DNA from: Colwellia sp.
Lineage (GTDB): Bacteria; Pseudomonadota; Gammaproteobacteria; Enterobacterales; Alteromonadaceae
Length of the DNA: 46,528 bases
Reading direction: 5' to 3'
NCBI GenBank assembly: GCA_022969215.1
Contig: JALJPA010000009.1
Span: 1 to 46,528, forward strand
In this document: one piece after another, positions 4,716 through 31,045 of the stretch
Layout: every line of letters begins with the position of its first letter
How positions within the stretch are numbered: position 1 is the first letter of the stretch
Program-made: the position numbers and the translations under genes
The notes under the pieces: generated by a model
What the model was told of the DNA's origin: nothing
The model's input: only the letters and a program-made list of their open reading frames with translations
The model's database searches: none

Positions 4716-4792
4716 GGGCCTTTAGCTCAGTTGGTTAGAGCATCCGACTCATAATCGGCAGGTCCCCAGTTCAAGTCTGGGAAGGCCCACCA
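4716..4792 (+). tRNA. tRNA with CAT anticodon (tRNA-Ile2 or elongator tRNA-Met)
   Basis: GGGCCTT/AAGGCCC acceptor stem, CTCATAA anticodon loop, GTTCAAGTC T-loop, encoded CCA. In E. coli ileX lies near rpoD, favouring Ile2, but identity is not resolved here. Confidence 0.9.
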
Positions 4793-4799
4793 TTTTCAT
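4745..4799. repeat. attL: 55-bp direct repeat, overlaps intact tRNA 3' half
   Basis: cgactcataatcggcaggtccccagttcaagtctgggaaggcccaccattttcat identical to 30991-31045. Confidence 0.95.
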
Positions 4800-4817: not shown

Positions 4818-4858
4818 CAGTAACCACACAAAAGTCAGTTACCATCTGGTAACCATCT
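4818..4858. promoter_or_regulatory. Putative arm-type integrase/excisionase binding sites next to attL
   Basis: agtaaccac...gttaccatctggtaacca; the same gtaaccatctggtaacca motif occurs beside attR (30855-30875). Confidence 0.5.
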
Positions 4859-9830: not shown

Positions 9831-10479
9831 TGTCCAGTGTCCTTAGCTTGCGTTCAATCCAGTAATTATACAGGTGTTAGTTGCTCGCTTTAGTTACAGG
9901 TTGTTCTCTTAGATGAAACACTTGAACCTCGGAACAAGGCAAGATTCTCTAGTAAAGTGCTAAGTAATTGATATGGAACGCTACCTAGTAACCAGAAAAC
10001 GGTTATTGTGTGATTATTACCCTTGTATTGTTGCAAATTGTATTTACCTTGTTTTTGATTGTGTAGAATTTCCTGTATGTCACTTTCTGTTACTTCACTA
10101 AGGATTGGGCCAAAGTAGGTTCATCGACCTAAAAACGAAAACGGCTATAGGAAAGATGAATCCGGTCGCGCCCCCCGTTTCATATACGAGTCATACATTA
10201 CGAATGAGAGGCAATTGGCCGAATACTGAGGACTTTAGTTTTATATTTTTTATTTTCCGTTAGGCACAGTTCAACGCACAATCAGGGCTGTAAATTGAGA
10301 GGGTCTTGTTCTGTATTTTTTATTTTTTTGTGGGGAAAGTGTGAGTTTTTTTATAGGTTAGGCGCAGCATTTAAGCATAGTTCACTTATCTTTTAAGTGA
10401 TCATAAACCAACTATCCCAAGCAGTTTAAGTTTTGGTACTAACCTAGTGCCAATGTTCCCTTAGTGCGCTTAACGGACG

Positions 10480-10736
10480 TTAGCCTTAGGTTTTTTGCCA
10501 TATATTTTCTCATGAATGTTTATTTTATTGTTAGTGCGTTCCTATACAGTAGGCTGTGATACTTGCTTTCTACAAGAAAGAGCGGATATTTCCTCCTTTC
10601 ACACATCGAACAGTTGCTTTGTTATTTTTAACTCATTGATCTACAGATAATAATCAAGTAATCTTGCCTTATTATAAATTATTGACGATTAACTCCATCT
10701 TGTAGAAAGAAGGCATTTTTCCTCATAATAAAGCTG
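10480..10736. repeat. 257-bp ORF-less unit, copy A
   Basis: Bounded by G^TTAG on both sides; 10493-10740 aligns ungapped with 12207-12454 (~16 mismatches in 248 bp by eye). Confidence 0.8.
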
Positions 10737-10767
10737 TTAGGCATTTAATCACATAAGGAGATGCATT

Positions 10768-11205
10768 TTGAGTTTCGATTATATTAATGGTGAAAAAGTA
10801 CCCCAAACTTTTATCCATGAAGATTATGAATTAGTTGGCACGCATAATGGAACTGTAAATGTAGAGAGCGGTAAATTTATTCTGCATGGGAAGTTACAAG
10901 GTACATTATGTCTTAATTCTAATGAACCTACTGAAATTTATGGTGAACAACAAGGTACCGTCAGTCTTTCTGGTAATAGTCATGTTTTCGTCAATGGTAC
11001 TATCCAAGGTACAACTACTATCCCATATGGAGCAACCTTAATTATTGAATCTACTGGTAAGTTACAAGGTACTCTTTCGAATGACGGCACTGTAATCTTA
11101 CGAGGTGTATTTGGTGGGGTAACTAGCGGAACAGGCCAAATAATTACTGAAGGAAATGGCTACATAAAAGAGCCTGTTGTAAGAAATGGTATTAATTATT
11201 ATTAG
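10768..11205 (+). CDS. Cassette 1: repetitive beta-solenoid protein
   Basis: 145 aa with repeated (L/Q)QGT(L/V/T) strands; RBS aaggag upstream; ORF track begins at TTG. Confidence 0.7.
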   Translation: MSFDYINGEKVPQTFIHEDYELVGTHNGTVNVESGKFILHGKLQGTLCLNSNEPTEIYGEQQGTVSLSGNSHVFVNGTIQGTTTIPYGATLIIESTGKLQGTLSNDGTVILRGVFGGVTSGTGQIITEGNGYIKEPVVRNGINYY

Positions 11206-11214
11206 TGGTGAAAA

Positions 11215-11307
11215 TGCCTAAAAAGTTGCTTAAACGGAAAAATAACAGTTGGCCATCGCTTCGCGATTATAGCCAACCATTATTTTCCGCTTAGCAAGGC
11301 GTTATGT
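11215..11307 (+). other. attC site of cassette 1
   Basis: TGCCTAA(a)AAGTTGCTTAAACGGAAAAATAACAGTTGGC...GCCAACCATTATTTTCCGCTTAGCAAGGCGTTATGT imperfect palindrome. Confidence 0.85.
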
Positions 11308-11334
11308 TTTTTAAATTTAGTCCTGGGAACGAAA

Positions 11335-11964
11335 ATGAAAGTCGATATAAAGTGGTGCGATTTAAAAAAAATTGGTGATACTAAGTTTGTAAATTCAATG
11401 TATATGTGGATCTTCGTTGTGCCATTATTAGTAAAAGCTTTTGAATATGTCGAAGATGAAAAACTTATATTTCAAATTTTTCAGCAACAACTTCCAATAA
11501 GTACTTCATTACCTTTCTCATGGAGCATGTTTTATTTCAGTGCTTTTTTCTTGGCTTTAGGTAATTTAATCTATTTGTTTAAATGCCCCAAAATAATTAA
11601 AGAACATCCCACTTATCAAAGTTATGTTAACGAAGGCAAAAAACTCAAGCAGTTAGGTCCGTATTGTGACGATATTTCATTTAATTGGCAGACGTTAGCT
11701 GAACAAATAAACCATAAAAAAGAAAGACTACAACTGAATAAAATGAATTCAATAGCAATTAGTTCTGTACGGAAAAATGAACCTGACTTCGATGTAGAAG
11801 ACCCTATACACTACTTTTGGCCAATACATAAATTTGGGGATGTAAAATTTCCATTTTATAGACGTATATGCACAACACTTTTTATTGTTGGATTCTCTTT
11901 ATTTGGAATTGTTGCACTTCAAAATTTATGGACTGTAGTTTCATTTTTAATGGCCAAAACATAA
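11335..11964 (+). CDS. Cassette 2: hypothetical membrane protein
   Basis: 209 aa, several TM segments; stop codon overlaps attC R''. Confidence 0.75.
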   Translation: MKVDIKWCDLKKIGDTKFVNSMYMWIFVVPLLVKAFEYVEDEKLIFQIFQQQLPISTSLPFSWSMFYFSAFFLALGNLIYLFKCPKIIKEHPTYQSYVNEGKKLKQLGPYCDDISFNWQTLAEQINHKKERLQLNKMNSIAISSVRKNEPDFDVEDPIHYFWPIHKFGDVKFPFYRRICTTLFIVGFSLFGIVALQNLWTVVSFLMAKT

Positions 11965-12054
11965 CAAGTTGCTTAAACGGACACAAACAGCTGGCTGTGC
12001 TCGTTCCTCGCTATTATAGCCAGCCATTTTTAGCCGCTTAGCAAAGCGTTATCA
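11959..12054 (+). other. attC site of cassette 2
   Basis: ACATAACAAGTTGCTTAAACGGACACAAACAGCTGGCT...AGCCAGCCATTTTTAGCCGCTTAGCAAAGCGTTATCA. Confidence 0.88.
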
Positions 12055-12193
12055 ATACAAAATATAATCCGAAGCATTGATTGACGCTTATTAGCTAATG
12101 ACCGCAATGTGGTAAAAGTGAGCCTTAGCTTTTAACCAATGGGCTATTCAAAATAGTTCACCGCTAATGACTTCTTGGTGCGCATTCCGGACG

Positions 12194-12450
12194 TTAGTAA
12201 TAAAAATTTTGCCATATATTTTCTCATGAATGTTTATTTTATTGTTAGTGTGTTCCTATACAGTAGGCTGTGATTCCTGCTTTCTACAAGAAAGAGTGGA
12301 TACTTCCTCCTTTCACACATCGAACAGTTGATTTGTTGTTTTTAACTCATTGATCTACTGACAACAATCAAGTAATCTCGCATTATTATATATTATTGAC
12401 GATTAACTCCATCTTGTAGAAAGAAGGGATTTTTCCTCATAATAAAATTG
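12194..12450. repeat. 257-bp ORF-less unit, copy B
   Basis: Same length between GTTAG boundaries as copy A, constant offset of 1714 bp, about 93% identical. Confidence 0.8.
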
Positions 12451-12472
12451 TTAGCTGTGTCATGGAGTATCG

Positions 12473-13339
12473 ATGAGTTTTCAAAGTAGGGAATGGTTTT
12501 ATTCATTCAGAGAATTAGAAGACCTAGCAACGAAGCAAGAACTAGATAAAATCTCCAGCCGAATAATAAAACAATATGCAGCAATAACTAAAAATTGGAA
12601 TAAAGAACTTAATTCAGAGTGGACTTGTAGAACTTACTTTGCAACTAACATGATTTTAAATGCTACTGTTTTATTAAAGAATGCAGAGTACGCAGAAGAA
12701 AAAAACTTAAGAATTGTTAAGCCTTATATTGAGTATTATGCGGTTTTATCCCTACTACGATGTGTAGTTTATACACTTCCAAGCCAGCAGTGGGATAATG
12801 GAAAGTTAATTGAAATATCTCATAGTAAAGCAATTAACTTAGCTAGTGATTGGTTAGCACTTTTCAATAAATCAGAGGCTCAGGAACTAAAAGGTTTCTG
12901 TAAGCTTCTTAAAGCGCAAAGAGAATTAATTTCCTATAGAGCACCTGCTAGCGGGGATGCAAATCTAGACAATAGCTATGATGTTATAAAAATATGCACA
13001 ATATTAGCTGAGCTTGCTCAATTTAATTCGGTTTTATTGGAAGCATCTGTTAAGAAAAATACCGATCCGAAAGACTTTGTCGTTCATAGTGATGATATTA
13101 GCAAAATCGTTAATGTTACTATTGAAGGTATTGAGTTCTATGATCGCTATGACGCCATTCGTCTTGATTACATCAGAAGAAAAGGCCCTTATCCTTCAAA
13201 CTTACTATGCACTATGACTGAAGGGCAAACGGAAGATTATATTGGCGCTTGGGACAATGACGAAAGTTTTGAAACCGATGACAGTATTTATCATGGTGGT
13301 AGTCCTTGTGAATGGCAAACCATCTTTGACATCCCGTGA
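12473..13339 (+). CDS. Cassette 3: hypothetical protein
   Basis: 288-aa ORF filling a cassette with exactly matching boundaries (12451-13438). Confidence 0.8.
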   Translation: MSFQSREWFYSFRELEDLATKQELDKISSRIIKQYAAITKNWNKELNSEWTCRTYFATNMILNATVLLKNAEYAEEKNLRIVKPYIEYYAVLSLLRCVVYTLPSQQWDNGKLIEISHSKAINLASDWLALFNKSEAQELKGFCKLLKAQRELISYRAPASGDANLDNSYDVIKICTILAELAQFNSVLLEASVKKNTDPKDFVVHSDDISKIVNVTIEGIEFYDRYDAIRLDYIRRKGPYPSNLLCTMTEGQTEDYIGAWDNDESFETDDSIYHGGSPCEWQTIFDIP

Positions 13340-13345
13340 AAACAC

Positions 13346-13444
13346 AGCTAACAAGCAATTCAACAAGGACAAAAAACAGTTGGTTTTTGCTCCTTCGTGC
13401 TTATTTTAACCAACTATTTTTTGCCTGTTAATTGGGCGTTAGAA
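13346..13444 (+). other. attC site of cassette 3
   Basis: AGCTAACAAGCAATTCAACAAGGACAAAAAACAGTTGG...CCAACTATTTTTTGCCTGTTAATTGGGCGTTAGAA. Confidence 0.92.
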
Positions 13445-13470
13445 TTTCAATCAACTATGGATATTAATTA

Positions 13471-14007
13471 ATGAGTGAAGCAGGGAAATCTTTTGAGTGC
13501 TCTATAAAAGATGCTGAAGAATTACTTATCAGATTTGATAAGGAAAATAACACCACATCACAACCTAACTCTGAGACATTAAAGAGAGCAGGTATGGTTA
13601 TCGCTATGGCTGCTTGGGAAACTTACGTTAAAGATCGCTTTAGAGAAGAAATCGATTTTTGGTTAGCCTCCGTTAACGGGAGTCTTCTTGGTAATTTTGT
13701 ACAGAGAAAAGCAAATGAAGATTTAAAACGCTTTTTCAATCCAAACACTGATCGTATTAAGCAACTATTTAAGAGTTACTTTGAAATTGATATAACATCT
13801 GGTTGGGTTTGGGATAACTACCAAGCACCACAGGCGAAAAAAGTGTTAAATGAACTTATTGCCAAGCGTGGAGAAGCCGCTCATATTGCCAATACAGATC
13901 CATGTGGTGCACATATTATAAAGAGAGATGACCTTGATAAAGCTATTAGGTTCTTAAAAGGCTTAGTTAAAGCCACTGAAAATGTTGTGGTCGTAAAAAA
14001 ATTCTAA
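13471..14007 (+). CDS. Cassette 4: HEPN-domain protein (RiboL-PSP-HEPN-like)
   Basis: 178 aa helical; MVIAMAAWETYVKDRF...LNELIAKRGEAAHI with Rx4H motif. Confidence 0.72.
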   Translation: MSEAGKSFECSIKDAEELLIRFDKENNTTSQPNSETLKRAGMVIAMAAWETYVKDRFREEIDFWLASVNGSLLGNFVQRKANEDLKRFFNPNTDRIKQLFKSYFEIDITSGWVWDNYQAPQAKKVLNELIAKRGEAAHIANTDPCGAHIIKRDDLDKAIRFLKGLVKATENVVVVKKF

Positions 14008-14059
14008 CAAGGCGTTTAAACGGACAAAAAGCAGTTGGCTGTTTAATGTGGCGTTATAT
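14002..14059 (+). other. Short (possibly internally deleted) attC site of cassette 4
   Basis: TTCTAACAAGGCGTTTAAACGGACAAAAAGCAGTTGGCTGTTTAATGTGGCGTTATAT. Confidence 0.7.
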
Positions 14060-14090
14060 TTCAGTGTTCCAAAGGTTAGAGTTAATAAAT

Positions 14091-14744
14091 ATGACTGATA
14101 AAATATTTAAAGAAATCTTCAATGTTACTTTTCTAATTGCAATTTTTACTGGGATTTTATATATAGCAGGTTATTCATATCACGGAAGCTATGTAACAGA
14201 ACTAACTTTGCCACATGATCTATTCAATGTTTCTTTCAATGAAGCGTTAATAACGGGTTATTATATGATGTTCTTAGGTGGTTTTTTTACTGTTATTCCT
14301 GCTGTCATAGTTACTTTTTTGATTTTTATGTGTTTACATTTAACAGGAGAGCTATCAGAACTGAAGCTGGTAAGAAAAATAGTTACCTTTTTCTTTGTTA
14401 ACAAAAAGAAAGAACATCAGCTTGAAAAACCTCCATTTTTAAAGAAGTTAATTAAATTATCATTATCCGTATTTTGTTTTTTCGCTGCGCTTCTTTTTAT
14501 ATGGTTTAGTCTTCATTCGATAAATACTTTCTCTAGTGAACAAGCAGTTGATAGTGCTAAAAAAAGTTTAAATAAAGCTAAAAAGGAAACAGTGGGAGTA
14601 ACAATTTCTGTTAATAACTCAAAATTTGAAGGTGTTATTTTAAGGTGCTCAGCAAGTCATTGTGCAATTTTAAATAAAGAAAGTAATAGCTTGTTAATTT
14701 ACCCAGTTTCCTCAATTAAGAATATTGAGATTGCACAAACTTAA
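14091..14744 (+). CDS. Cassette 5: hypothetical membrane protein (start likely 14091)
   Basis: Several TM segments; the 14046 ATG of the ORF track precedes the cassette boundary at 14053/14054. Confidence 0.7.
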   Translation: MTDKIFKEIFNVTFLIAIFTGILYIAGYSYHGSYVTELTLPHDLFNVSFNEALITGYYMMFLGGFFTVIPAVIVTFLIFMCLHLTGELSELKLVRKIVTFFFVNKKKEHQLEKPPFLKKLIKLSLSVFCFFAALLFIWFSLHSINTFSSEQAVDSAKKSLNKAKKETVGVTISVNNSKFEGVILRCSASHCAILNKESNSLLIYPVSSIKNIEIAQT

Positions 14745-14773
14745 ACATACAAGCGCTTAAGCGGGCGTTATCG
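14744..14773 (+). other. Degenerate/truncated attC end of cassette 5
   Basis: aaacatacaagcgcttaagcgggcGTTATCG; R'' does not complement the cassette 5' end. Confidence 0.4.
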
Positions 14774-14920
14774 ATACTAAAGCTAATCCAACCTATCCAA
14801 TAGCAGTAATAGCTAACGTCTTCTTTGTGGTAAAAGTGACCACAACCTAGACTGTTATATAGTTAATACCCTTGGTAGAAATTTGAGTGGCTGGGAAAAT
14901 AACTAATAAGAGAAAATTAA

Positions 14921-15637
14921 ATGAAGCGCTGCGTAAAAAGCATCATCGTCATAATAAGCCTATCCCTTATTTCAACAGTAAGCATCGCCACTACTAACAA
15001 GGTTGTGAGCTTCAGCACAGCTAAGAAAAAGATGTACACTATAGTGTTCAATAACACAGGTGATACGCTGTATTGCGGTTGTGACTGGTCAGCTAAAAAA
15101 GTAGACCTGATCAGTTGCGGCCTACAAAGTTTCTTCCCTAAAAAACAAAGAAAACGTGCTCTAAGAACCGAAGCCGAGCATATTATCCCTGCATCTTGGA
15201 TGCATAAAGTTAACAACAAAACTAGGCAATGTGTTATTGATTCTAAAGCTGTAACAGATAGTGCGCGTGAATATTGTCAAAAACATGATTTAGATTATAA
15301 GAAAGCCCATAACGACTTAGTAAACCTTTACCCTGCTGTTGGGCAAGTCAACGCTGACCGCTCTAACAAGCCATTTGTAGATGTTGCTAAGAACAAAGTT
15401 AAAAGTTACGGGAAGTGTGACATTGAAATAGGTTCGAGAGGGATAGTGCCCCCTGCGGATAAGAAAGGTGATATTGCTAGAGTCGCATTTTATATGACAA
15501 AAACTTATGGAGTTACTTACTCAACAAGGCAGCTTGGACTGTTCAAACAATGGGATAAGCAAGACCCTATCTCAACACAAGAAAGGGCTCATAATCGGCG
15601 AATAATTAAAGTTCAGGGCTATGGTTTAGAGCAATAA
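14921..15637 (+). CDS. Secreted/periplasmic endonuclease I (EndA/Vvn family)
   Basis: Signal peptide; RTEAEHIIPASWM catalytic motif; AHNDLVNLYPAVGQVNADRSNKPF; cysteines. Confidence 0.88.
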   Translation: MKRCVKSIIVIISLSLISTVSIATTNKVVSFSTAKKKMYTIVFNNTGDTLYCGCDWSAKKVDLISCGLQSFFPKKQRKRALRTEAEHIIPASWMHKVNNKTRQCVIDSKAVTDSAREYCQKHDLDYKKAHNDLVNLYPAVGQVNADRSNKPFVDVAKNKVKSYGKCDIEIGSRGIVPPADKKGDIARVAFYMTKTYGVTYSTRQLGLFKQWDKQDPISTQERAHNRRIIKVQGYGLEQ

Positions 15638-16058: not shown

Positions 16059-17147
16059 ATGGGTTTAGCTGAGGCTTTGATTAATCTTCCACAGTCTGAA
16101 AGAGGCGGTGAGATCGCTCAACGAGGGTTTGACTATCAGACCTGCTGGGCACTATCTCAAATGCTGGAATATGAACTGGATGGAAAAAACTATGTTTTTA
16201 TTTTTGAGTACCATGATGATGTTCTAATTTTAGATGATGAAGATTCTCCGAAAGATCTCACTTTTGCTCAAGTAAAAACCAGCGAATCCCATTGGACCGC
16301 TTATGATTTACGCAAGAGTACAAAGGCCAAACCAACCTCAATAATTGGTAAGCTATTCATTCATCATAAGAACTTCTTTGAATATTCACCTAAACTATTA
16401 TTTGTTACGAATGCTTCCTTCAACTTATGTGAAAATAATGGCGGCAAGTCTTCTTTTAGTGCAACTGAAGTGAAAATTGAGCATCAGGTTGGATTCAAAC
16501 AAGCAATTAAAGAACAAGTAATGCTTGAGGATGCGAGCATTGATCTTTCTTTTTTAAGGTTTGTTCAATCTTCACTAAGCCTAGACGATCACATCACACA
16601 TATAAAAGGTAAGTTGTGTGACTTTCTTTCTAAGAAATACGGTGATCAAACTACACTAAGTGTGCATGTACTAGCAGCTTTGCTAGAAAAAGAATGCAGA
16701 AATAAATCTAAGATAAAATCAGCTGACATCATCGATTTTAAAGATCTGATTTCTCGTAAAGGATTCTCTACTCAAGCATTTAATGGGGTCCTCGATTCAC
16801 TAAATACAAGCAATAGTTTTAAGCCTGACTGGGAAATGGCAAAAACAGTTTTTAATGATTTGAGTAAAACCCCATTTCAGCTCATCCCCCTACAAGCGAC
16901 TTTCTCACGAGTTTGTATTGATTTAAACCAAAGCACAAAGAATCCGTCGAATGTATATTTAGAGCATGCTATTAGCCTTCATGATATATCGGGTATTAAC
17001 TTGGATTTAAAACTCTATGTAACTGAGGTTATGATCAAAATTGATGCACTGTGCCCAGATTATACGATGGCTCTAACGTCAAGGAAGAAAGAATGTATTG
17101 TTGTTTACTCAATAGTTCAGAAGTTACTAGAGGAAGGTGAGAAATGA
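16059..17147 (+). CDS. DUF4297 (Cap4-type) dsDNA endonuclease-domain protein
   Basis: GGEIAQRGFDYQTCWAL...FEYHDDVLILDDE...LTFAQVKT matches the DUF4297 PD-(D/E)xK-like motif set. Confidence 0.78.
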   Translation: MGLAEALINLPQSERGGEIAQRGFDYQTCWALSQMLEYELDGKNYVFIFEYHDDVLILDDEDSPKDLTFAQVKTSESHWTAYDLRKSTKAKPTSIIGKLFIHHKNFFEYSPKLLFVTNASFNLCENNGGKSSFSATEVKIEHQVGFKQAIKEQVMLEDASIDLSFLRFVQSSLSLDDHITHIKGKLCDFLSKKYGDQTTLSVHVLAALLEKECRNKSKIKSADIIDFKDLISRKGFSTQAFNGVLDSLNTSNSFKPDWEMAKTVFNDLSKTPFQLIPLQATFSRVCIDLNQSTKNPSNVYLEHAISLHDISGINLDLKLYVTEVMIKIDALCPDYTMALTSRKKECIVVYSIVQKLLEEGEK

Positions 17148-18793
17148 AAAATATCTATTTCAAAAGTGCTCACATATTATCCCTTAGTGATAAAAAAGGG
17201 TTCTTTTACGAGTTTTCTCCAGACATTAATATAATTACTGGTGAAAATGATACTGGAAAATCCAGTTTTATCAAAAGCTTGTATCACACATTAGGTGCTG
17301 ATGTTCGCCTCGATAAAAGGTGGAAAAGTGACGACTTCATTTCAAAAGTAATAATTCACGTTAAAAAACGTGATTATGCTTTTATTCGTTACAATATGCG
17401 TATTTCTATTTTTGATATCACTGAAGGACAGGATCACATTGTTACTTCTAACTCTCGAACAGAAATTGCTCGAGTTGTAGGAGATATCTTTGATTTCAAC
17501 TTAGAGTTAGTTGTAAAGAACACTTTAGTTCAAGCTCAAGCCCAACCCGCTAGTCTGTATTTGCCTTTTTATATCGACCAAGATAGTGGTTGGGGTAAAA
17601 TTTTGGATTCGTTCAGCAGCTTAGCTATGTACAAAGATTGGCAAAAGAACATCCTTAACTTCCATGCTGGTGTTAAACCGAAAGAATTCTACCAACTTCA
17701 AGGGGAAATTAACTTAATTGACTTTGAACTTGATGAAGTTAGAGCAACATTAAAAGCTCTCGAGGCGGCTAAAAAACGCTTTGAAGATTCATTCGGTAGA
17801 GTATTATTTGATGTTGATGTTGGATATTATGAAGAGCTGTTAGAGCGCTTTCTCCGTCGGTGCCAGGACTTACATCAGAAAGAAACAAAATACAGAATCA
17901 AGTTAATAGAAGCCTTGTCCCTTCGAGACGAAATTATATCTGAAATAGAAGAGTCTAAAGGACAACTTGATGAAAATAACATTGACTCCTTATCTCCATC
18001 AGCAAGTATAGATGCCAAATATACAGTGCTTGAAAATAGAGATAAATTGTTGCTGATCATTCCTGCATTGTATGAACAAAAATCTGTGTATGATGAAAAA
18101 ATAGCTAGAATCAAAGAAGAATTGAAAAGCGCTAAAAAGTTAAGTTCTGAACTGAAAGAAATGCTTCAGGAAGTTAAAGGTAAATTAACTCTTCAAGATA
18201 TTATTAAAGCTCAAGCAAGCAAGCAGGTTGAGTTTACTTTCGGCGAACAAATTAGTGAGTTGCTTGAAGAAATAGGTCGATTAGATGTTGCTAGAACAAA
18301 ACTAACAGAAAAAATAACTGAGTTTGATGATAAAAAGCGTACAAAAAAAATTAACGATAAGTTCAAAGAGTCATTGAAGTTTGCACAAACTGAATTAGGT
18401 ATTCAAGATCCTAAACCGGGTACGATTCTTCAGTATGGGGCTATATCAAAGAGTGAAACTGGAAGCCGTGCGCCAAGGGCGATACTTGCGTACCACTATG
18501 CTCTTCTAAAAACGATTGAAGATAAGTCTACAATCCCAATGCTACCAGTCGTAATTGATTCGCCTAAACAACAAGACCCTGACAGGAATACAACGAAGAA
18601 AGTCTTCGATTTGTGTATTAATGGCTTGTCTGAAAATAATCAACTTATTATCGGTTCAGTTTCCTTTGAAAGAGAAACTGATGAGTTCAAAACATTGATT
18701 ATGACGGATAAATATAGCCTGTTAAAACCTGGTCTATATGAAAAGGTTTATCAACAAATAATGCCCCTATACCAAAAATCTGTATTGTTATAG
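17144..18793 (+). CDS. SMC/Rad50-like ABC ATPase, partner of the DUF4297 nuclease
   Basis: Walker A GENDTGKSS, central coiled coil, Walker B-like LPVVIDSP; ATGA overlap with upstream gene. Confidence 0.85.
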   Translation: MKNIYFKSAHILSLSDKKGFFYEFSPDINIITGENDTGKSSFIKSLYHTLGADVRLDKRWKSDDFISKVIIHVKKRDYAFIRYNMRISIFDITEGQDHIVTSNSRTEIARVVGDIFDFNLELVVKNTLVQAQAQPASLYLPFYIDQDSGWGKILDSFSSLAMYKDWQKNILNFHAGVKPKEFYQLQGEINLIDFELDEVRATLKALEAAKKRFEDSFGRVLFDVDVGYYEELLERFLRRCQDLHQKETKYRIKLIEALSLRDEIISEIEESKGQLDENNIDSLSPSASIDAKYTVLENRDKLLLIIPALYEQKSVYDEKIARIKEELKSAKKLSSELKEMLQEVKGKLTLQDIIKAQASKQVEFTFGEQISELLEEIGRLDVARTKLTEKITEFDDKKRTKKINDKFKESLKFAQTELGIQDPKPGTILQYGAISKSETGSRAPRAILAYHYALLKTIEDKSTIPMLPVVIDSPKQQDPDRNTTKKVFDLCINGLSENNQLIIGSVSFERETDEFKTLIMTDKYSLLKPGLYEKVYQQIMPLYQKSVLL

Positions 18794-18828: not shown

Positions 18829-19175
18829 GAATCTATCTTTGAAGCGAAATTATTGCTCTGCCTAAGCTTTGAATTATATTAATTTACCTGAACTTATCTG
18901 TAGGTCCAAGTTTATATACTCTCAGGGCTAAAGTACCTCGTTAATTGAAAAGTACAATACCTCAGTGTACTAACGCATTTTTAATGGCATACATTTGAAC
19001 AACTTAGCTTATGAATTTTCTCTATTCGTAGTAAAGATGGCGACTTTGATGTGGATATTTATTTATAACAAGCTGTATAATATATGAAAAATATAGTTAG
19101 TTGCTTTCCTTTCCTAACATTTTAGCCCGCCAAAATTTGCCCATTAACAAGGGCATTAGAATATTGAGAATAAGT

Positions 19176-20459
19176 ATGAAGTTTATATGTGAAGACTGTA
19201 TTAATAACGAGGTGTTGAAACAGCATCTGATCAAAAAAGAACTCATTAACGAATGTTCTTATTGCGAGAGTAAACTAGTTCGAATAATTAGTTCCGAAGA
19301 ATTGATTAAGTTTGGTGGCGACAGGTTGGTAAATTCTTTGTATTCCATCGATGAAGCAACTTCTTATGAAGCAGCTATGTTCTTCGAAAGTTGTGATAAA
19401 ATATCATTTAAAGAAATTGCCTATATCATTGAGGATCTAGAAGTTGGAGACAGCAATTTTGAAGATGAGCTTGCCGAGTACATCTGGGTTAACTCTAGTA
19501 GTGACACAGATCTATTCGTCCTCGATTATGGCGACCATGATAACAATTCGTACAAAATTGAATGGTCAAAATTTATTAAATCTATAGCTCATAAACATCG
19601 GTTTTTTAATAAGGATGCGAAGGTTTTCTTAGATTCATTATTTGAAGTTTTACTTAATAAAGGTGAAGTTAGAGATAGAGTAATTACAACGATAAATAGT
19701 ACTACAGAGCTATTTAGAGCTAGGGTGGCAAACGATGAGTCTACGAGGAAGGAAATTGTTTCTGACCCCGCCACTCAGTTAGGTCCCGTTCCAGAGTGGT
19801 TAGCAGGTGAACAAAGAATGACACCAACAGGAATTTCAGCATTATATTGCTCACTGGAGAGAGATACATGCTTTAGCGAGGTCCGCGCAATTACTGGTGA
19901 TGTGGTACTTTCGGGGATATTTAAACCAACCGAAGAATTACATCTATTAGATCTTACTAAAATACATAAGCTCAGCCAATTAACAATAGACCCTTTTGAT
20001 AATTGCTTCTCCGACTTTTCAAATAGAAGTGAATTTATCAGAGATTTAATGTTTTTGATGTCAAGACCAGCATCGAAAAATAATTCGTCAAATTATCTAT
20101 CAACGCAGATAATATTTGAATATCTATCGGTTAAATTTGGAAATAAGCTTTCAGGTTTAATGTTTAATTCTGTTCAAACCGATGGTAAAGGCAAAAATGT
20201 AGTATTGTTCCCAGAAAAATCTACCGTTAATTCTTCTCCAAATTGCTTTAAAAACATTAAATCTATTTCGGAGCATCACACAGGTTTTGGTGATTTTCAG
20301 TATTATTTTTACTCAATTGAAAAGTCACCTGACAAATATAATTTAAGTTCTTCCTCTAAGGCGAAACTAGATTTCGTTGATGGAAGCTTGATGGTTTCAA
20401 AAGTTAAAGCTGTAGTTACTAAAACAGAAGATATTCCAATCGAAATCTCCGTGACATAA
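19176..20459 (+). CDS. RES-domain protein with N-terminal CxxC / HEPN-RES-like domain (start likely 19176)
   Basis: CEDC..CSYC N-terminus; FRARV...GISALYCSLERDTCFSEVRA RES-like core. Confidence 0.72.
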   Translation: MKFICEDCINNEVLKQHLIKKELINECSYCESKLVRIISSEELIKFGGDRLVNSLYSIDEATSYEAAMFFESCDKISFKEIAYIIEDLEVGDSNFEDELAEYIWVNSSSDTDLFVLDYGDHDNNSYKIEWSKFIKSIAHKHRFFNKDAKVFLDSLFEVLLNKGEVRDRVITTINSTTELFRARVANDESTRKEIVSDPATQLGPVPEWLAGEQRMTPTGISALYCSLERDTCFSEVRAITGDVVLSGIFKPTEELHLLDLTKIHKLSQLTIDPFDNCFSDFSNRSEFIRDLMFLMSRPASKNNSSNYLSTQIIFEYLSVKFGNKLSGLMFNSVQTDGKGKNVVLFPEKSTVNSSPNCFKNIKSISEHHTGFGDFQYYFYSIEKSPDKYNLSSSSKAKLDFVDGSLMVSKVKAVVTKTEDIPIEISVT

Positions 20460-20510: not shown

Positions 20511-20535
20511 CTTACTACTAATAAAGGTGACTATT

Positions 20536-20997
20536 ATGGGGCAAGCGTTAGAGATCCATGAGCGATCAGCAGAGGTAATTGAGTTCCCCTTGAGGGCAAT
20601 GGGTCGACCTGCACATAAAGCGGCTAGAATGGCTACTTTGATGCTAGTGAATGAGGGCATGAGCCAAGGACAAGCAGCAGAGGCTGCTGGTTACTCAATG
20701 GGGATGCAAAACTCTAGTCACATAGTTAAGTCAGTTGGCTTTCAACGAGCGTATACTGCTTTGCAGTCTAAATTACAGGTTGAATTGCCTTTCGAAGTGG
20801 TGAATGCCCGTGACCTTTACCTTGAGGCACATGCCAGTGCAACAACAACAATGGAAAAACTGCGTGCGATAGATAGTCTCGTCAAGCTTTATGGATTATT
20901 GCCAAATAAAGTTGTTGAAATAATAGAACCAACTAGCCGTGAGCAGATGGACACAATGTCTGATGCAGAACTAAAGCGGATTGTTGATGGAAATTAG
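20536..20997 (+). CDS. Probable phage terminase small subunit-like DNA-binding protein
   Basis: HTH-containing N-terminus (NEGMSQGQAAEAAGYS), helical body, acidic C-terminus; AAAGGTG RBS before ATG 20536. Confidence 0.55.
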   Translation: MGQALEIHERSAEVIEFPLRAMGRPAHKAARMATLMLVNEGMSQGQAAEAAGYSMGMQNSSHIVKSVGFQRAYTALQSKLQVELPFEVVNARDLYLEAHASATTTMEKLRAIDSLVKLYGLLPNKVVEIIEPTSREQMDTMSDAELKRIVDGN

Positions 20998-21259: not shown

Positions 21260-23014
21260 ATGCAATTGGCTACACTATTAAAAAATATGTTTGTAGATGA
21301 TGATTATAAAGGCACTGCCATAGATTTTGCGAAATTAAAGAATCCATCAGAAATAACTGATTTTAATTTAAACATAGATGATGACAATAATCAGTTGTTG
21401 AAATACTTGATATGGCCGATGAATACATTTCATTTAATAGCTTGGATATTTGATACATATGACGTGTACCAGAAAATTGTATCTTTAGAGAATGACAACA
21501 ACGGCCTAAGGCAGCTGAGCACGGGCAACCACGCAAGAAATTGGTCTAATGCATTGCGCAGTGCTACAACGCATAATGAAATTAATGTAAGTTCAAGGTT
21601 TTATAAACTATTGTTTAAATTGTTTAGTGCAAGTAAAGCAAGAGTTCAGATTGAAGAGTTACTTGAAGATCCTGAATATCTGGATTTACTTTTGGAACTT
21701 TATGTTGAGAGTGATAAATGTGCAGACAGTATAAGAAATGAATTACATCAAAAGACTAATGCTCTGATTCATCGATATGTGGGGGTATTGAGTGCTATAA
21801 ACGACCGCTCAATTATTTCTAGCTTATCTCAATGTAATAAAAGTAATGGGGTAATTCAGTTTAAGAGTCTTGTTCCGCAATCTGGCATTTCACTCAATAG
21901 CTTAAGCCATAATTTAGCATACATTAAGCCAGGGATTAAAGTAGCAGCTATTGTTGGAAAATCACCTCACCAAATAAAACCTAATGAATACCATATATTG
22001 GTGCTTCCTTGGCCTCTAGAGGTTAATGATGAGTTTTTTAAGCCGGATAATACACCAAGCTTACAGATGAATGAGGAGTTTGGTTTTTTTGCATATGAGA
22101 ACCGCCAAAAAATTACGCATCAGATGATTGAATATGCGATTGAATCCTCAGGAGAGACAAATTTACTAGACCTTATAGTTATTCCTGAATGTGCAGTGCA
22201 TTCTAATGATAAAACTGAACTAATAAAGGGTCTAAAATACTACTTTTCAAAAAGAGACATCCAACCTCCAGTCATAATTTTTGGTGTTTTTGGCAACGGT
22301 GATGGAAAAGGAAGCTACGGTGAAAACAGCTTGGAGCTTTTATATCAGAACCGATTTTCTGAACTTTATGATAGTGAGAATCAGAAGAAACATCACAGAT
22401 GGGCCCTCGATAAAACCCAGCTACAGACTTATGGATTAAGCCATTTACTTAGTGAGGAAAAAGTTAAGTTGTGGGAGAACTGCTCTACTGGAGGTCGAAA
22501 GTTGATTTCCTATCGGAATGACCACATTCATTTATGCCCTCTAATCTGTGAAGATTTAGCAAGACAAGAGCCAATCGCTCCTGTAGTTCGAGCATTAGGT
22601 CCCGATCTAGTAATAGCTTTGCTTCTTGATGGACCTCAAATCAAACAACGATGGCCAGGGACATATGCAAAAATGCTGACAGAAGAGCCCGGAAGTAGTG
22701 TTTTATCAATTACGTCATTTGGCATGACCCAACGCTCTACAGGTGCTATTAACCCCGAAACTAAAGAGAACTATTCACCAAGCTTTGATGTGGCGCTTTG
22801 GAGTGATGCCACTGGTAATCAAAGGTCTATTGAATTAGATGAAGGAAAAATCGGCGTTTTACTGCAACTCAAGTTTATAGAGGCAGAGCAATGGACAGCT
22901 GATGGTCGAAGAGAAGATAAAAATAGATTAGTTTACTCAATGCACAAATCTATAGGTGATGATGTTGAACTAGGTAAATTATCTCAAAAGGAAAGATTTA
23001 CAGTGAGTGCGTAA
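21260..23014 (+). CDS. Protein with N-terminal helical domain and C-terminal carbon-nitrogen hydrolase (nitrilase) domain
   Basis: Candidate Glu-Lys-Cys triad: LIVIPECA (E), HHRWALDKTQL (K), HLCPLICEDLA (C). Confidence 0.72.
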   Translation: MQLATLLKNMFVDDDYKGTAIDFAKLKNPSEITDFNLNIDDDNNQLLKYLIWPMNTFHLIAWIFDTYDVYQKIVSLENDNNGLRQLSTGNHARNWSNALRSATTHNEINVSSRFYKLLFKLFSASKARVQIEELLEDPEYLDLLLELYVESDKCADSIRNELHQKTNALIHRYVGVLSAINDRSIISSLSQCNKSNGVIQFKSLVPQSGISLNSLSHNLAYIKPGIKVAAIVGKSPHQIKPNEYHILVLPWPLEVNDEFFKPDNTPSLQMNEEFGFFAYENRQKITHQMIEYAIESSGETNLLDLIVIPECAVHSNDKTELIKGLKYYFSKRDIQPPVIIFGVFGNGDGKGSYGENSLELLYQNRFSELYDSENQKKHHRWALDKTQLQTYGLSHLLSEEKVKLWENCSTGGRKLISYRNDHIHLCPLICEDLARQEPIAPVVRALGPDLVIALLLDGPQIKQRWPGTYAKMLTEEPGSSVLSITSFGMTQRSTGAINPETKENYSPSFDVALWSDATGNQRSIELDEGKIGVLLQLKFIEAEQWTADGRREDKNRLVYSMHKSIGDDVELGKLSQKERFTVSA

Positions 23015-24655: not shown

Positions 24656-26338
24656 CTAGTGAGCTTTGGCCTCACTTTCTATCATTTTTCCAAATAATGT
24701 CTTTAAATTACTTGCGGCATCTTTCGATTGGCGCACAACTATCCCTTTGGTTATTGTATTTTTGGTTATTGTATTTTTGGTTATGCTTGGAGGAAGTACG
24801 GCTAGTATCGTTGTTTTCTTGACCGCTGAAATCTTCATATCGTCAAAGTTAACAACTTCAATATTGCGAGTAACTAAATCTTTTGCGACGTACTGGATTG
24901 CTCTGGTTTCAAGGTTATGTAAGTCATATGATGGGTGCGCTTCCAAAAATGAAACCTTAGCACTGGTCATTACACTATCAACGCTTTCGTCTGGGGTACG
25001 GATGTTAACGTACCATGTATGTGGCGTTGTAGTGCGCTCTGATTTGAGGCGCATCTTCTTAACTTTTCGGTATCCCAACGTCTGCATAGTAGCCGCAATA
25101 ACCCGACCATGTGGCCACTTATGCTCACTATTCGGTAGGTCGGCTTTTAGTTTAAGGTAAGTAAGGTCTACTACTTGAGCATTAACTATTTCACAAGCAA
25201 AGTCTTCGATACGTTCACGCATAATCCCTTCTTCACTACCATCAGCGGCAGCATTTGCCATGTCGGCAAGCTCTTTGGTTTTTGGGGCTGTGTTGGCCTT
25301 GGAAAACTCGTCATTTATCACGTATTCGTGGGTAAAGAAGTACGCAATTTCGGGCAAGTAGTTCTCGCGGATTGTTGCAATCTCAGCAAAGTATTCATTG
25401 TAAGCATCGGCTCCGCCAAGTGACTCCCGAACTTCTTCCGTTGTTTCATGGGCTGAACGAGTAAGTAAGTATCGGCGCATATCTTCGGTGACAGGTAGGG
25501 CATCAGCATAGTTAGAAAACAGAACCCACGCAGCGGTTCGGTTAACAATTGAGGTACCTACATTTCGTTTGTTGATCACAAATGATTTATTAGATATGAA
25601 AGGCTTCACTGAGTTAATCGCGTTGTAGCGTTCTTTACCTTGTAACTTAACTTCTTCGACAACTTTAATCATGTTTCCCTCAGCCCATTCAGTCCATTCT
25701 TTTTCAAATAGACGAGGCTCGATAAGACCAAACGCCCCCTGACCTAAAGCCTGTCCAGCTATCTCTGCCATCAGCGTTTTACCATTCCCCTCAGGACCAG
25801 TTAACACTAAGGCGAACGGCTTAGGATTGTTTGGGTTCTGGTATGGCCATGCCAAGTAATCTAAAGTTAGTTGCGCACCGCGACTCCCCTTTACTAAGAA
25901 TTGAACGTGTTTAACAAATCGTTCTACGGCTTTGCGGCTTTCTCCTGAGGGAACTCGTAGCAATGGCGGGATGTACATATTCAGCGTTAGCTCTTGAGAA
26001 ACATCACGGTAAACTTCTGGCGCTCCAGGTTTATAACCTTTACCAAAAACGGTAGGTATCCAGCCTGCGGCAATGCCACAATCGAGGGCCATGGCATGTT
26101 CTGAATTTTTAGTATCATCTGCCGCTGCTTCGATGTTCATGGTGTTGAATGGTTTTGGCGCAATAGATGTCTTGGTTTTAGAGTTATATACTTTATCTTC
26201 GGTGCCAATATAAACGCGATTCTGCGCCCATGCTGGTGCTTCTGATTCACTTAGTAAATGTGGGTCTTCATCTTTTAGGGCTTGGATACACTGAGTAATT
26301 GTCGCCTTGAGATAGTTATTCTCAATCGGTTGTAGGCT
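24656..26338 (-). CDS. SF3/D5-type helicase portion of a satellite primase-helicase (ORF track starts at 26140; coding-like sequence extends to ~26338 in frame)
   Basis: Walker A LTGPEGNGKTLMAEI, WVLFSNYADALPV; upstream in-frame LQPIENNYLKATITQCIQALKDEDPHLLSESEAPAWAQNRVYIGTEDKVYNSKTKTSIAPKPFNT. Confidence 0.85.
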   Translation of the reverse strand, partial: SLQPIENNYLKATITQCIQALKDEDPHLLSESEAPAWAQNRVYIGTEDKVYNSKTKTSIAPKPFNTMNIEAAADDTKNSEHAMALDCGIAAGWIPTVFGKGYKPGAPEVYRDVSQELTLNMYIPPLLRVPSGESRKAVERFVKHVQFLVKGSRGAQLTLDYLAWPYQNPNNPKPFALVLTGPEGNGKTLMAEIAGQALGQGAFGLIEPRLFEKEWTEWAEGNMIKVVEEVKLQGKERYNAINSVKPFISNKSFVINKRNVGTSIVNRTAAWVLFSNYADALPVTEDMRRYLLTRSAHETTEEVRESLGGADAYNEYFAEIATIRENYLPEIAYFFTHEYVINDEFSKANTAPKTKELADMANAAADGSEEGIMRERIEDFACEIVNAQVVDLTYLKLKADLPNSEHKWPHGRVIAATMQTLGYRKVKKMRLKSERTTTPHTWYVNIRTPDESVDSVMTSAKVSFLEAHPSYDLHNLETRAIQYVAKDLVTRNIEVVNFDDMKISAVKKTTILAVLPPSITKNTITKNTITKGIVVRQSKDAASNLKTLFGKMIESEAKAH

Positions 26339-28023
26339 TCAAGCATTGAGTCCCCTACTTGGGCGCGGTCTTTCTTACAAAGTTTACGTTGGCTATTACG
26401 GGACACTTCTACTTGAATTTTTTCAAGCTGTTCTTCGTCTGTAGCTACTGCGATACGAGCGACTAAACCTTTGCGGGTATTCTTTGAGACGGCTGCGAGG
26501 TATTCGTCACCTGCTTTGTGAAATAAGCTTTTGATCGTTAGTTTTTTACCTGAGGTGCCCTCTCTCATGGACTCCCACTTTTGGTCACAAGCATCCGCTT
26601 CGTAATCGTCACCGTCAGAGGACCAAGTGTCCCAGATTTCTAATCCTTGAGCCGAAGCGTTACTGTGATTGTTTAGTATGAATCCGACACTTAGCCATTC
26701 ATCATAACCATTAGGGCTTATGTATGAGAGTGCAAATCGAACTTCGTCCATTTCGTTTAGGGACATTTCGCCTTTAGCACGAACGCTTACTTGCTTATTC
26801 GGAAGTTTGGGCAGGGCTTCATCTAGTTCTTGAATAGTTACCGTTTTTCCATGCCACTCAACTTTGTTTTCCCAGAACGAACCGTCTTCATTTTTTCGGT
26901 CAGGTTTAACATTAATTCCGATAGGTAGGCGCATCCAGCGGATAATATTATTACCCGATACATCACCTACAATACCAGCACGTTTAACAATAGAGGTGGC
27001 GAAGTCGACACTGTTGATTGGTAGTGCAAGTACATAACCATCTTGGAACGACCCAGGACTTGTTTCGATTGAGTAGGTTGGTTTTAGTTTGTCACGAATT
27101 CCTTTAGCTGTGTATGCTGCACGGGTTACTTTACCGTTTGAGTCAGTCTTGGCTTCTTTATGTTCACCAATGTCATCTATCATGAGAACAAACATCGCAT
27201 GGAAGTCCTCTTTTTTACGAGAAGTACCTGTGAATGTTGAACCACTGAAATACCGACCAGCACTACCTTTGTCCATTAGCTCTTTGGCGGTTAGGAACTG
27301 TCGGGTGTTGAAGCCGACTTTCCTATCTTCACCAGTGTTCCATACGGCAACGGTTGTTGAGGCTACGTGGTCACCAAAAATGTTGGTCATGAACTCTGCA
27401 TTAGTTTTAGGTTCTAGGATGGATTCCTTCTGTTGTACGGATAGGAAAGTTACGCCGTGGATGCCCGTATCACTATTATCTTCAACCATACTTTTAGCAT
27501 TGGTGTTATCAAAAATTGATGGTTGGTGCGCTTTGACCTCGTATTCTTTGGCCAGTTCTTCGGCCTTGGTTTGGGCTAATTCTTTCGCTTCTTTTTCTGT
27601 TTGATCACTCGACAGTTTCGCTATACGAGTTGCTTCTTGTTCCTCTGTTTTGGCTTTTTTTACACGGTCACGTTCTGCTTTATTTTCACGGGAAATGTCA
27701 TGATTTAATTGCTTGAGATCGGTCGTTGCTTTAGCTTTCTTGGTATTAAGGACACGTGATTGCGCTCGCAATGATTTCAGCGCTTCGCGGAACTTTTTGG
27801 CTACCGTGGCTAAAACCGTGTACTGAGTTTTCTCGTCTGTACTAAAGTGTTGGCGCTGACCATGTTCATCCAAGAATCCTTTAAGGTCTGTACTCGCGTT
27901 ATCTACCTCATCCTTGGCTTCCATGAGGTCTGGGGCTAGTCCATCAAGAGCCAACTCTAGTTCTTTAATAGATTTTTCAAGCGTAATGATTGTGGCGTTG
28001 CGTTCTTTATTCTTATTAGACAT
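26275..28023 (-). CDS. Primase portion with PriCT_2-like domain, probably frameshifted relative to the helicase ORF
   Basis: Coiled-coil N-terminus, primase-like centre (MLMIDDIGEH... IIRWMRLPIGINVKP), PriCT_2-like VRFALSYISPNGYDEWLSVGFIL...W..WS. Confidence 0.75.
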   Translation of the reverse strand: MSNKNKERNATIITLEKSIKELELALDGLAPDLMEAKDEVDNASTDLKGFLDEHGQRQHFSTDEKTQYTVLATVAKKFREALKSLRAQSRVLNTKKAKATTDLKQLNHDISRENKAERDRVKKAKTEEQEATRIAKLSSDQTEKEAKELAQTKAEELAKEYEVKAHQPSIFDNTNAKSMVEDNSDTGIHGVTFLSVQQKESILEPKTNAEFMTNIFGDHVASTTVAVWNTGEDRKVGFNTRQFLTAKELMDKGSAGRYFSGSTFTGTSRKKEDFHAMFVLMIDDIGEHKEAKTDSNGKVTRAAYTAKGIRDKLKPTYSIETSPGSFQDGYVLALPINSVDFATSIVKRAGIVGDVSGNNIIRWMRLPIGINVKPDRKNEDGSFWENKVEWHGKTVTIQELDEALPKLPNKQVSVRAKGEMSLNEMDEVRFALSYISPNGYDEWLSVGFILNNHSNASAQGLEIWDTWSSDGDDYEADACDQKWESMREGTSGKKLTIKSLFHKAGDEYLAAVSKNTRKGLVARIAVATDEEQLEKIQVEVSRNSQRKLCKKDRAQVGDSMLEAYNRLRITISRRQLLSVSKP

Positions 28024-29455: not shown

Positions 29456-30826
29456 TTAGCCTGTCTTTGCTACTTTGTTACTACTTAGTAACTCAAACAT
29501 CATCTGGCGCTTTTCGTCATCACTTAGACTACCTAACAAATTCATTAGTTTATTATCCATGTTTGATGAGGATTCAATACGGCCCGCAGATTCTAGCACC
29601 TCACGCTCAACCTTGGCCGCCGGTATTATAAGTTCATCAGCCGACTGTACTACGTAGCCCGCAGTTACATCGTCACGGTTGGTTTTGTGATTAAGCAATC
29701 GTTTGATCGTGTATGATCCAATACCTGATGCTTCAGCATTTGAGGCAAAAGTTCGACGGCAATCATGAAAACCAAACGACAAGCCTATCGCTTTGGTTAT
29801 GGATCGCATAGCTTTTCGTGGGTCATCTATGATTACGTCTTTCGGACTAAATACATAGTCACCAACCTTTGCTTTATGACGACGGGTTAATATTTGTTTG
29901 ACGGTATCGGTGATCGGTAATTCTAATGGCGAGCCATTTTTGGTTTTGTCTATCCAAAAATATCCAGCGGATAAGTTAACTCTATTCCAAGATAAACCCA
30001 TTATTTCACCACGACGTAAACCCGTGAATATGGCAAACTCTAAGGCATCTATGCACACTATACCCATTGGGTAATCACTACGGCTAGCACGATACGAATC
30101 AAAACCATCAAGGACTTGGGCTAATTGGCTCTTTCTAATATGTGACTGTTTACGAGGAACATGATTCCATTGTCTATTATGACTTAAGCTACCAGTAATT
30201 CCCTGAAACAATTGCTCGCCACTTAGTCCTCGGTATTCTCTAATGGCAAAGTTAATAACCGCTCGTAGAACACGTGCCCATAAATCTGCTTGTGCCGGAG
30301 ATGATTTTCTTTGGCCTAATATTTTACCTTCAGTTATTTGCTGATGTCTGTCAGCCACATCTTGCTCACTGATGTTGAGTAGGCTTCGTTTTACAAAATC
30401 ACTAGAGTACAAGCGCAATAGGTCACGGTATTGTGTCTCTGTTTTTGGCTTTAAAGGTTTAGGGGATTTATGTCTATGATTAAGGTAATCATCAAGTGCT
30501 CGGCCTAAGGTGATCTCGCCGTTTACTTGTGCCTGTTCAGCTTCATTTAGGTCAGTACCACTATCAACATCGAACAATACTTTCTTTGCTTCCAGCCTCG
30601 CTTCTTCGAGTGTCATAACTGGCCATTGCCCTAAAACCTTTTGCTGTCTTTTACCATCAACTTGTCGTCTAATAGCAAAGGACTTATTACCAGTGGCTGT
30701 GATTCGTAAAGAAAGACCTGGCATGTTTGTGTCACCTATCTCTACTCTGCCTTTAGCTGGTAGGGCATTTTTCTTCTCGTAGTTCTTAATGAAGCTTTCA
30801 GTCAGCTTGAGTTTTTTGTGTGGCAT
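29456..30826 (-). CDS. P4-type tyrosine integrase (DUF4102 N-terminus)
   Basis: SLRITATGNKSFAIRRQVDGKRQQKVLGQWP; catalytic TGLRRGEIMGL, FHDCRRTFAS, LLNHKTNRDDVTAGYV. Confidence 0.95.
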   Translation of the reverse strand: MPHKKLKLTESFIKNYEKKNALPAKGRVEIGDTNMPGLSLRITATGNKSFAIRRQVDGKRQQKVLGQWPVMTLEEARLEAKKVLFDVDSGTDLNEAEQAQVNGEITLGRALDDYLNHRHKSPKPLKPKTETQYRDLLRLYSSDFVKRSLLNISEQDVADRHQQITEGKILGQRKSSPAQADLWARVLRAVINFAIREYRGLSGEQLFQGITGSLSHNRQWNHVPRKQSHIRKSQLAQVLDGFDSYRASRSDYPMGIVCIDALEFAIFTGLRRGEIMGLSWNRVNLSAGYFWIDKTKNGSPLELPITDTVKQILTRRHKAKVGDYVFSPKDVIIDDPRKAMRSITKAIGLSFGFHDCRRTFASNAEASGIGSYTIKRLLNHKTNRDDVTAGYVVQSADELIIPAAKVEREVLESAGRIESSSNMDNKLMNLLGSLSDDEKRQMMFELLSSNKVAKTG

Positions 30827-30854: not shown

Positions 30855-30875
30855 CAGTAACCATCTGGTAACCAC
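30855..30875. promoter_or_regulatory. Putative arm-type integrase site next to attR
   Basis: cagtaaccatctggtaaccac, shared with attL-proximal 4818-4858. Confidence 0.5.
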
Positions 30876-30990: not shown

Positions 30991-31045
30991 CGACTCATAA
31001 TCGGCAGGTCCCCAGTTCAAGTCTGGGAAGGCCCACCATTTTCAT
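30991..31045. repeat. attR: 55-bp direct repeat (tRNA 3' fragment)
   Basis: Identical to 4745-4799. Confidence 0.95.

Follow-up and report, generated by a model that had tools for sequence, protein, structure and literature searches.

The window, a stretch of 46,528 nucleotides that forms contig C424 of a Colwellia sp. draft genome (5.04 Mb in 434 contigs, 87% complete), carries a 26.2-kb island inserted at a tRNA-Met gene, and within this island lies an array of integron gene cassettes with their attC recombination sites. A first-pass annotation, made from the sequence alone, had described the array as a cluster of attC sites lacking integron-integrase (CALIN) nested in a phage-satellite-like element. 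Searching for attC sites by simple R''/R' folding proved far too permissive and gave way to covariance models, R1, built with the window sites included, and R2, built only from attC sites on other contigs of the host genome and used to scan the whole window with filters off. The four attC sites previously recognized are real, with R2 E-values from 3.5e-25 to 2e-6, and all lie on the bottom strand as expected; folding of this strand gave z-scores of -5.6, -2.1, -3.9 and -1.1 for attC1 to attC4. A proposed degenerate fifth site (~14745–14773) was insignificant (9.9 bits, E = 4), and what speaks for it is its context, as it adjoins a conserved end described below. An orphan attC that had been overlooked, likewise degenerate, follows the Lamassu genes of the island and is 77% identical to an attC at another locus (L089); given this site, further parts of the island may be cassette-derived. 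The covariance model placed about 120 attC sites over some 25 contigs of the host genome, with long arrays on C396 and C398. Rfam contains no family that matches.

All cassette open reading frames (ORFs) lie on the plus strand, and the cassette starts complement the R'' of their own attC broadly as claimed, at 12 of 14 bases in cassette 3, 11 in cassette 4, 10 in cassettes 1 and 2 and 9 in cassette 5. Judged from sequence, such complementarity is the mark of one-by-one insertion by an integron integrase (IntI). Since a promoter scan of the array performed no better than shuffles, no cassette promoter (Pc) is claimed.

A 292-bp repeat, not noticed in the first pass, stands ahead of cassettes 1 and 3 (10449–10740 and 12163–12454), and its second copy accounts for most of a previously unexplained gap at 12049–12450. 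The same repeat occurs on host contigs C293, C74, C23 and C398; on C293 it separates the start of a divergent intI from the first cassette, and on C74 it is likewise found directly upstream of intI. Both attI and the intI promoter are normally located in this interval. An earlier reading of the repeat as a non-coding cassette or a miniature inverted-repeat transposable element was dropped once it had been matched to the intI–cassette spacer. By homology, the repeat is the putative attI/leader region of the host chromosomal integron, with intI missing: over 100–200 bp, the two window leaders share 75–84% identity with attI regions in the host and its relatives, several of which stand beside intI. 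A tblastn search of the window with two intact IntI proteins of relatives found no integron integrase, in agreement with the first-pass annotation.

The leader runs straight into a conserved left end (L), with no intI, at the junction TTTTATTGTTAGTGTGTTCCTATACAGTAGGCTGTG or near it, in the window, on C23 and in several relatives, and this intI-less junction was aligned at eight loci in five genomes. On C41, an intI pseudogene directly adjoins the left end with its 3' end, which fits the units being integrons without their former intI. After the last attC of each window array follows a conserved right end (R; GTTATCGATACAAAATCTAATCC...GCTAATGTC...GTGG), also new to this analysis, which begins at the R' triplet of that attC and could be aligned at 21 places. 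The shared right end would be the original right flank of attI.

A unit opens with a left end, continues with a leader of ~225 bp that contains attI and with cassettes, each bearing its attC, and closes with a right end. Unit 1 (10464–12114) holds cassettes 1 and 2 and unit 2 (12178–14832) cassettes 3 to 5; over 281 bp, the left end and leader of the second are 90% identical to those of the first. The junction between them is 86% identical over 443 bp to a two-unit junction in a relative (G023) that holds other cassettes. In both units a predicted attI heads the array and intI is absent between the left end and attI, so that neither is a complete integron, in which an intact intI stands next to attI. 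Because each array has its own attI/leader and 3' end, we regard the arrays as integrase-deleted integrons in tandem, and it is very probable that the region 10464–14832 comprises two such units inside the tRNA-Met island. The term CALIN applies in that there are at least two attC sites and no intI, but it understates the structure of the arrays.

Table 1. Features of the integron units and the surrounding island in the window
Feature	Position	Strand	Evidence or remark
Left end (L) of unit 1	10464..10514	+	GTGCGC...GGACGTTAGC...TTTTTTGCCATATATTTTCTCATG
Leader and putative attI of unit 1, no intI	10515..10740	+	Homologous to C293/C74 intI–cassette spacer; cassette junction GTT at 10736
Cassette 1	10736..11300	+	145-aa ORF 10768-11205, weak bactofilin similarity
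attC1	11216..11307	-	R2 72 bits, E 2e-18
Cassette 2	11301..12047	+	209-aa ORF 11335-11964, no family
attC2	11959..12054	-	R2 76 bits, E 2e-19
Right end (R) of unit 1	12048..12114	+	Aligned with 20 other right ends
Left end (L) of unit 2	12178..12228	+
Leader and putative attI of unit 2, no intI	12229..12454	+	Homology to unit 1 leader
Cassette 3	12450..13437	+	288-aa ORF 12473-13339, no family
attC3	13346..13444	-	R2 95 bits, E 3.5e-25
Cassette 4	13438..14052	+	178-aa RiboL-PSP-HEPN protein, ORF 13471-14007; Pfam PF18735 E 9.5e-26
attC4, truncated	14002..14059	-	R2 31 bits, E 2e-6
Cassette 5	14053..14766	+	ORF 14046-14744, no family; attC degenerate
Right end (R) of unit 2	14767..14832	+	Conserved right end
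tRNA-Met, island insertion site	4716..4792	+	ARAGORN, Rfam tRNA
attL core, 55 bp, tRNA-Met 3' end	4745..4799	+	Direct repeat, exact copy of attR
Lamassu LmuA, island cargo next to array	16059-17147	+	PADLOC E 4e-176
Lamassu LmuB, island cargo next to array	17144-18793	+	PADLOC E 4e-289
Degenerate orphan attC, after Lamassu and before HEPN/RES gene	19063..19161	-	R2 29 bits, E 1e-5
HEPN/RES-domain protein, island cargo next to array	19101..20459	+	Pfam PF08808, PF18870
Primase-helicase-type protein (DUF5906)	24656..26140	-	PDB 6k9c 'Primase' E 1e-7
PriCT-2 / RepB-type primase-like protein	26275..28023	-	Pfam
Tyrosine integrase with arm-binding domain, adjoins attR	29456..30826	-	Pfam PF00589, PF13356; PHROG integrase
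attR core, 55 bp	30991..31045	+	Direct repeat; empty site in G023, G008, G015

Scans with the unit-end patterns, which covered six genomes, indicated that such units form a dispersed family. Of the 11 left ends in the closed chromosome of a relative of the same genus (G010, 5,373,180 bases), 10 are followed within 5 kb by a right end on the same strand; when the right-end clusters were placed at random, pairings averaged 0.08 and never exceeded 5 in 20,000 trials. A total of 33 L–R pairs of 0.6–5 kb were collected, most with attC sites inside. Their leaders are of two types: type A is that of the window, and type B contains TTACTGAG...CTTAGTAA palindromes and ends in much the same AATAAGCTGTTAG. 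In type-B leaders (L021 694-970, L074 12041-12300 and L075 5641-5950), repeats of these palindromes replace the intI promoter region; from its sequence, with an attI-like end, the type-B leader looks like a different regulatory region. In a second closed genome (G022), attI matches head attC arrays at 353186, 733645, 2412436 and 4133127, and the sole intact intI is at 4133127. No intI relic was detected by tblastn in 17-kb stretches around the other three, and since the genome is closed, contig breaks do not explain their lack of intI. A match to the intI profile was found in 38 of 39 genomes of the genus (31 above the family cut-off), many of which have several attI matches, and other genera of the family showed partial matches to the right end, the left end or the leader. 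Searches did not find the leader in the plasmid and phage collections, nor its core in viral contigs. As whole units with shared ends occur at many chromosomal places, acquisition as units is likelier than the capture of cassettes by a satellite that had first been suggested.

The host genome (G000) and its relatives abound in short intergenic repeats of palindromic sequence (GCTAATGACTTCTTGGTGCGC...GACGTTAGC), similar to the unit ends, an example being window positions 12160–12205. A 297-amino-acid tyrosine recombinase, ~32% identical to IntI, was seen in two copies (L075 17077-17970 and G023:C1 near 470 kb), one of them just downstream of two tandem integron units.

The 26.2-kb insertion is a true integrated element at tRNA-Met, since in three relatives (G023, G008 and G015), which carry the empty site, the two flanks join directly at a single att copy. 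Direct-repeat att sites, an integrase and an empty site in relatives, the hallmarks of an integrative genomic island, were all found. Near-identical 20-bp direct repeats (CAGTNACCATCTGGTAACCA) lie just inside both island ends (4836–4855 and 30855–30874) and are probably candidate arm-binding sites of the integrase. When genome contigs were scanned with this integrase, the named relatives gave distant matches only (42% or less). The defence-type genes of the island are those for Lamassu LmuA and LmuB, the HEPN/RES protein and the cassette-borne RiboL-PSP-HEPN protein.

Units or their parts were also found on or near other mobile elements. In G011, the same tRNA-Met gene harbors a different insertion (L122 1400-11990) with attC sites, one L–R pair and further right ends; it also encodes SIR2-like, SMC-type ATPase and FRG proteins, with a Y1-transposase gene beside the tRNA and no recognized integrase. 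A filamentous-phage-like contig (L168, IMGVR_UViG_2923764317_000001) with Rep_trans, Zot and two integrase genes contains a complete type-B unit with three attC sites (12373–13890) that starts ~600 bp after the Zot gene. This unit lies next to filamentous-phage genes and may lie inside the prophage. A tRNA-Met island with a related integrase in G019 gave one weak attC match (31 bits).

Taken as a mechanism, these findings would mean that the units derive from a complete integron through loss of intI and make no integrase of their own, that the loading, excision and shuffling of cassettes at the unit attI is done in trans by IntI from another place in the cell, that the units spread as units, and that the island integrase may then carry them between cells. 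The cassettes at the window attI sites would accordingly have been, and may still be, loaded by IntI made elsewhere. Several observations weigh against this scheme. The host draft lacks an intact intI (the copy on C41 carries stops, that on C74 is internally deleted after about residue 140, and that on C293 runs off the end of its contig); both attC4 and attC5 are degenerate, and given this, part of the array may be frozen; and neither a clean target duplication nor a transposase for unit movement was found. The lack of an intact intI and the degenerate attC4, attC5 and orphan sites would also suit a plainer origin, in which chance rearrangement brought pieces of the chromosomal integron into the island, where they would be decaying remnants and the leaders leftovers, in line with the proposal that CALINs are degraded integrons (PMC9024848). 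We consider such decay quite unlikely, because random fragments would not share both ends, whereas the same intI-less junction and both ends recur at many loci and in several species with different cassettes. Compatible with the trans-loading scheme is the idea that the L–R unit is a transposable element with the integron as cargo, its imperfect inverted-repeat ends being acted on by a transposase in trans. The consensus left end GTGCGCATTCCGGACGTTAGC and the reverse complement of the right end, TACCACATTGCGGACATTAGC, are identical at 15 of 21 positions, the units are dispersed around the closed chromosome of G010, matches to either end occur in other genera of the family, a full unit follows the Zot gene of the phage-like contig, and cargo differs at a shared position between the host and G011. 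In this last case, the unit on host contig C212 has its left edge and right flank in common with G011 and other cargo between them; homology with G008 and G024 breaks off close to the left end of this unit, the right side being unalignable, and no duplication was seen. Transposition is a serious contender, a little short of an even chance, but no target duplication or transposase has been identified, the left end resembles the short palindromic repeats, so that the ends could be repeat-rich flanks, and there is no fully resolved empty site: clean L–R empty sites were sought in G023, G024, G008, G015 and G011 with no decisive case. Transposition of the repetitive extragenic palindrome (REP) type by a REP-associated tyrosine transposase (RAYT), brought to mind by the Y1-transposase gene beside tRNA-Met in G011, was set aside, as nothing ties that gene to the units.

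IntI itself could also have spread the attI modules, if recombination between one attC upstream and another downstream of a leader excised a composite cassette of right end, left end, leader and attI that was reinserted elsewhere. The segment 12048–13437 is flanked by attC on both sides with a whole leader within, and the junction shared with G023 (86% over 443 bp) stands there between different cassettes; nonetheless, this route needs an upstream array, which stand-alone units lack, and we find it rather doubtful. L–R transposition, composite cassettes made by IntI and plain recombination between repeats are all candidate routes of unit multiplication. A different possibility concerns the island as a whole, which might be a true phage satellite that packages cassettes into helper capsids. 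P4-like satellites and phage-inducible chromosomal islands (PICIs) have a tRNA site, a tyrosine integrase, their own primase/helicase and defence genes, together with packaging or hijacking genes. The island is alike in its phage-type integrase, its tRNA site, its own replication genes for a primase and a helicase and its defence genes, but differs in having no recognized packaging or hijacking genes. Sequence searches of Pfam, PHROGs, NCBIfam and PDB recovered no gene for packaging, capsid remodelling or hijacking of or interaction with a helper, although divergent ones could escape them, and among IMG/VR viral contigs there was no match for the island helicase, the primase or the ORFs at 20527 and 8148, so that no viral relative of the replication genes was found there. 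The description as an integrative element holds, with its 55-bp repeats, integrase and empty sites, but that as a satellite is not supported, and satellite status seems improbable. The ORF at 20527–20997 was also considered as a terminase small subunit, without support.

The usual picture of an integron is that of a single attI accompanied by its integrase, loose clusters of attC sites being taken for products of decay. CALINs are common (PMC9024848), and the window units resemble them in having several attC sites in one orientation with no intI nearby, but differ in possessing their own attI/leader and conserved ends. IntegronFinder detects attI only for class 1 integrons (PMC9024848), and the structure seen in the window is therefore invisible to it. 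Scattered CALINs and single attC sites have been reported in Shewanella (PMC9229058). Compared to sedentary chromosomal integrons, the units have attI and attC sites homologous to those of the larger arrays of the host (for example C398), but are small, dispersed, devoid of intI and present several times per chromosome. The nesting of such an array in a phage-like element, which the first-pass annotation did not know to have been described, is not new: the account of Shewanella given in PMC9892861 includes a cryptic prophage, M16-3, with a complete integron and an attI-headed CALIN inside, and also refers to CALINs in virulent phages. M16-3 and the window share an integrase-less array with its own attI in a phage-derived element; the genus and the prophage are different, and section 3.3 of that paper mentions neither a recurrent end-defined unit nor dispersal. 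In the open-access literature we found no account of a family of units of this kind that are dispersed and have their ends in common, a silence that is weak evidence of novelty.

Mobile integrons travel on Tn402-like transposons or integron mobilisation units. The L–R units are similar in that defined ends enclose an integron whose movement would depend on another agent, but no transposase gene or known insertion sequence was seen at their ends and they lack intI. We tentatively suggest, while holding it at somewhat less than even, that integrase-free mini-integrons with their own L, R and attI constitute a new kind of mobile element that moves as units, with one chromosomal IntI serving many attI-headed arrays in trans, some of them on integrative islands and next to phage genes. 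Both a left end and a right end are common to about 30 small arrays, one type of which also shares an attI without integrase, with several per closed chromosome. If one IntI does serve the units in trans, these marine bacteria would have many-sited cassette traffic, and arrays riding tRNA islands would provide a between-cell route for cassettes, among them likely defence genes. CALINs would gain a testable origin, and annotation tools should seek orphan attI sites.

Among the remaining genes of the island, searches of Pfam, PHROGs, NCBIfam and PADLOC brought up nothing convincing for ORFs 20527–20997 (156 amino acids) and 21260–23014 (584 amino acids), which come after the RES gene. An Endonuclease I-family protein with a signal-peptide-like start is encoded at 14921–15637, immediately behind the right end of unit 2 and outside the cassettes. 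On host contig C74 (L022 1-1100), attI is followed directly by a gene that, judged by eye, resembles an IS91-type transposase.

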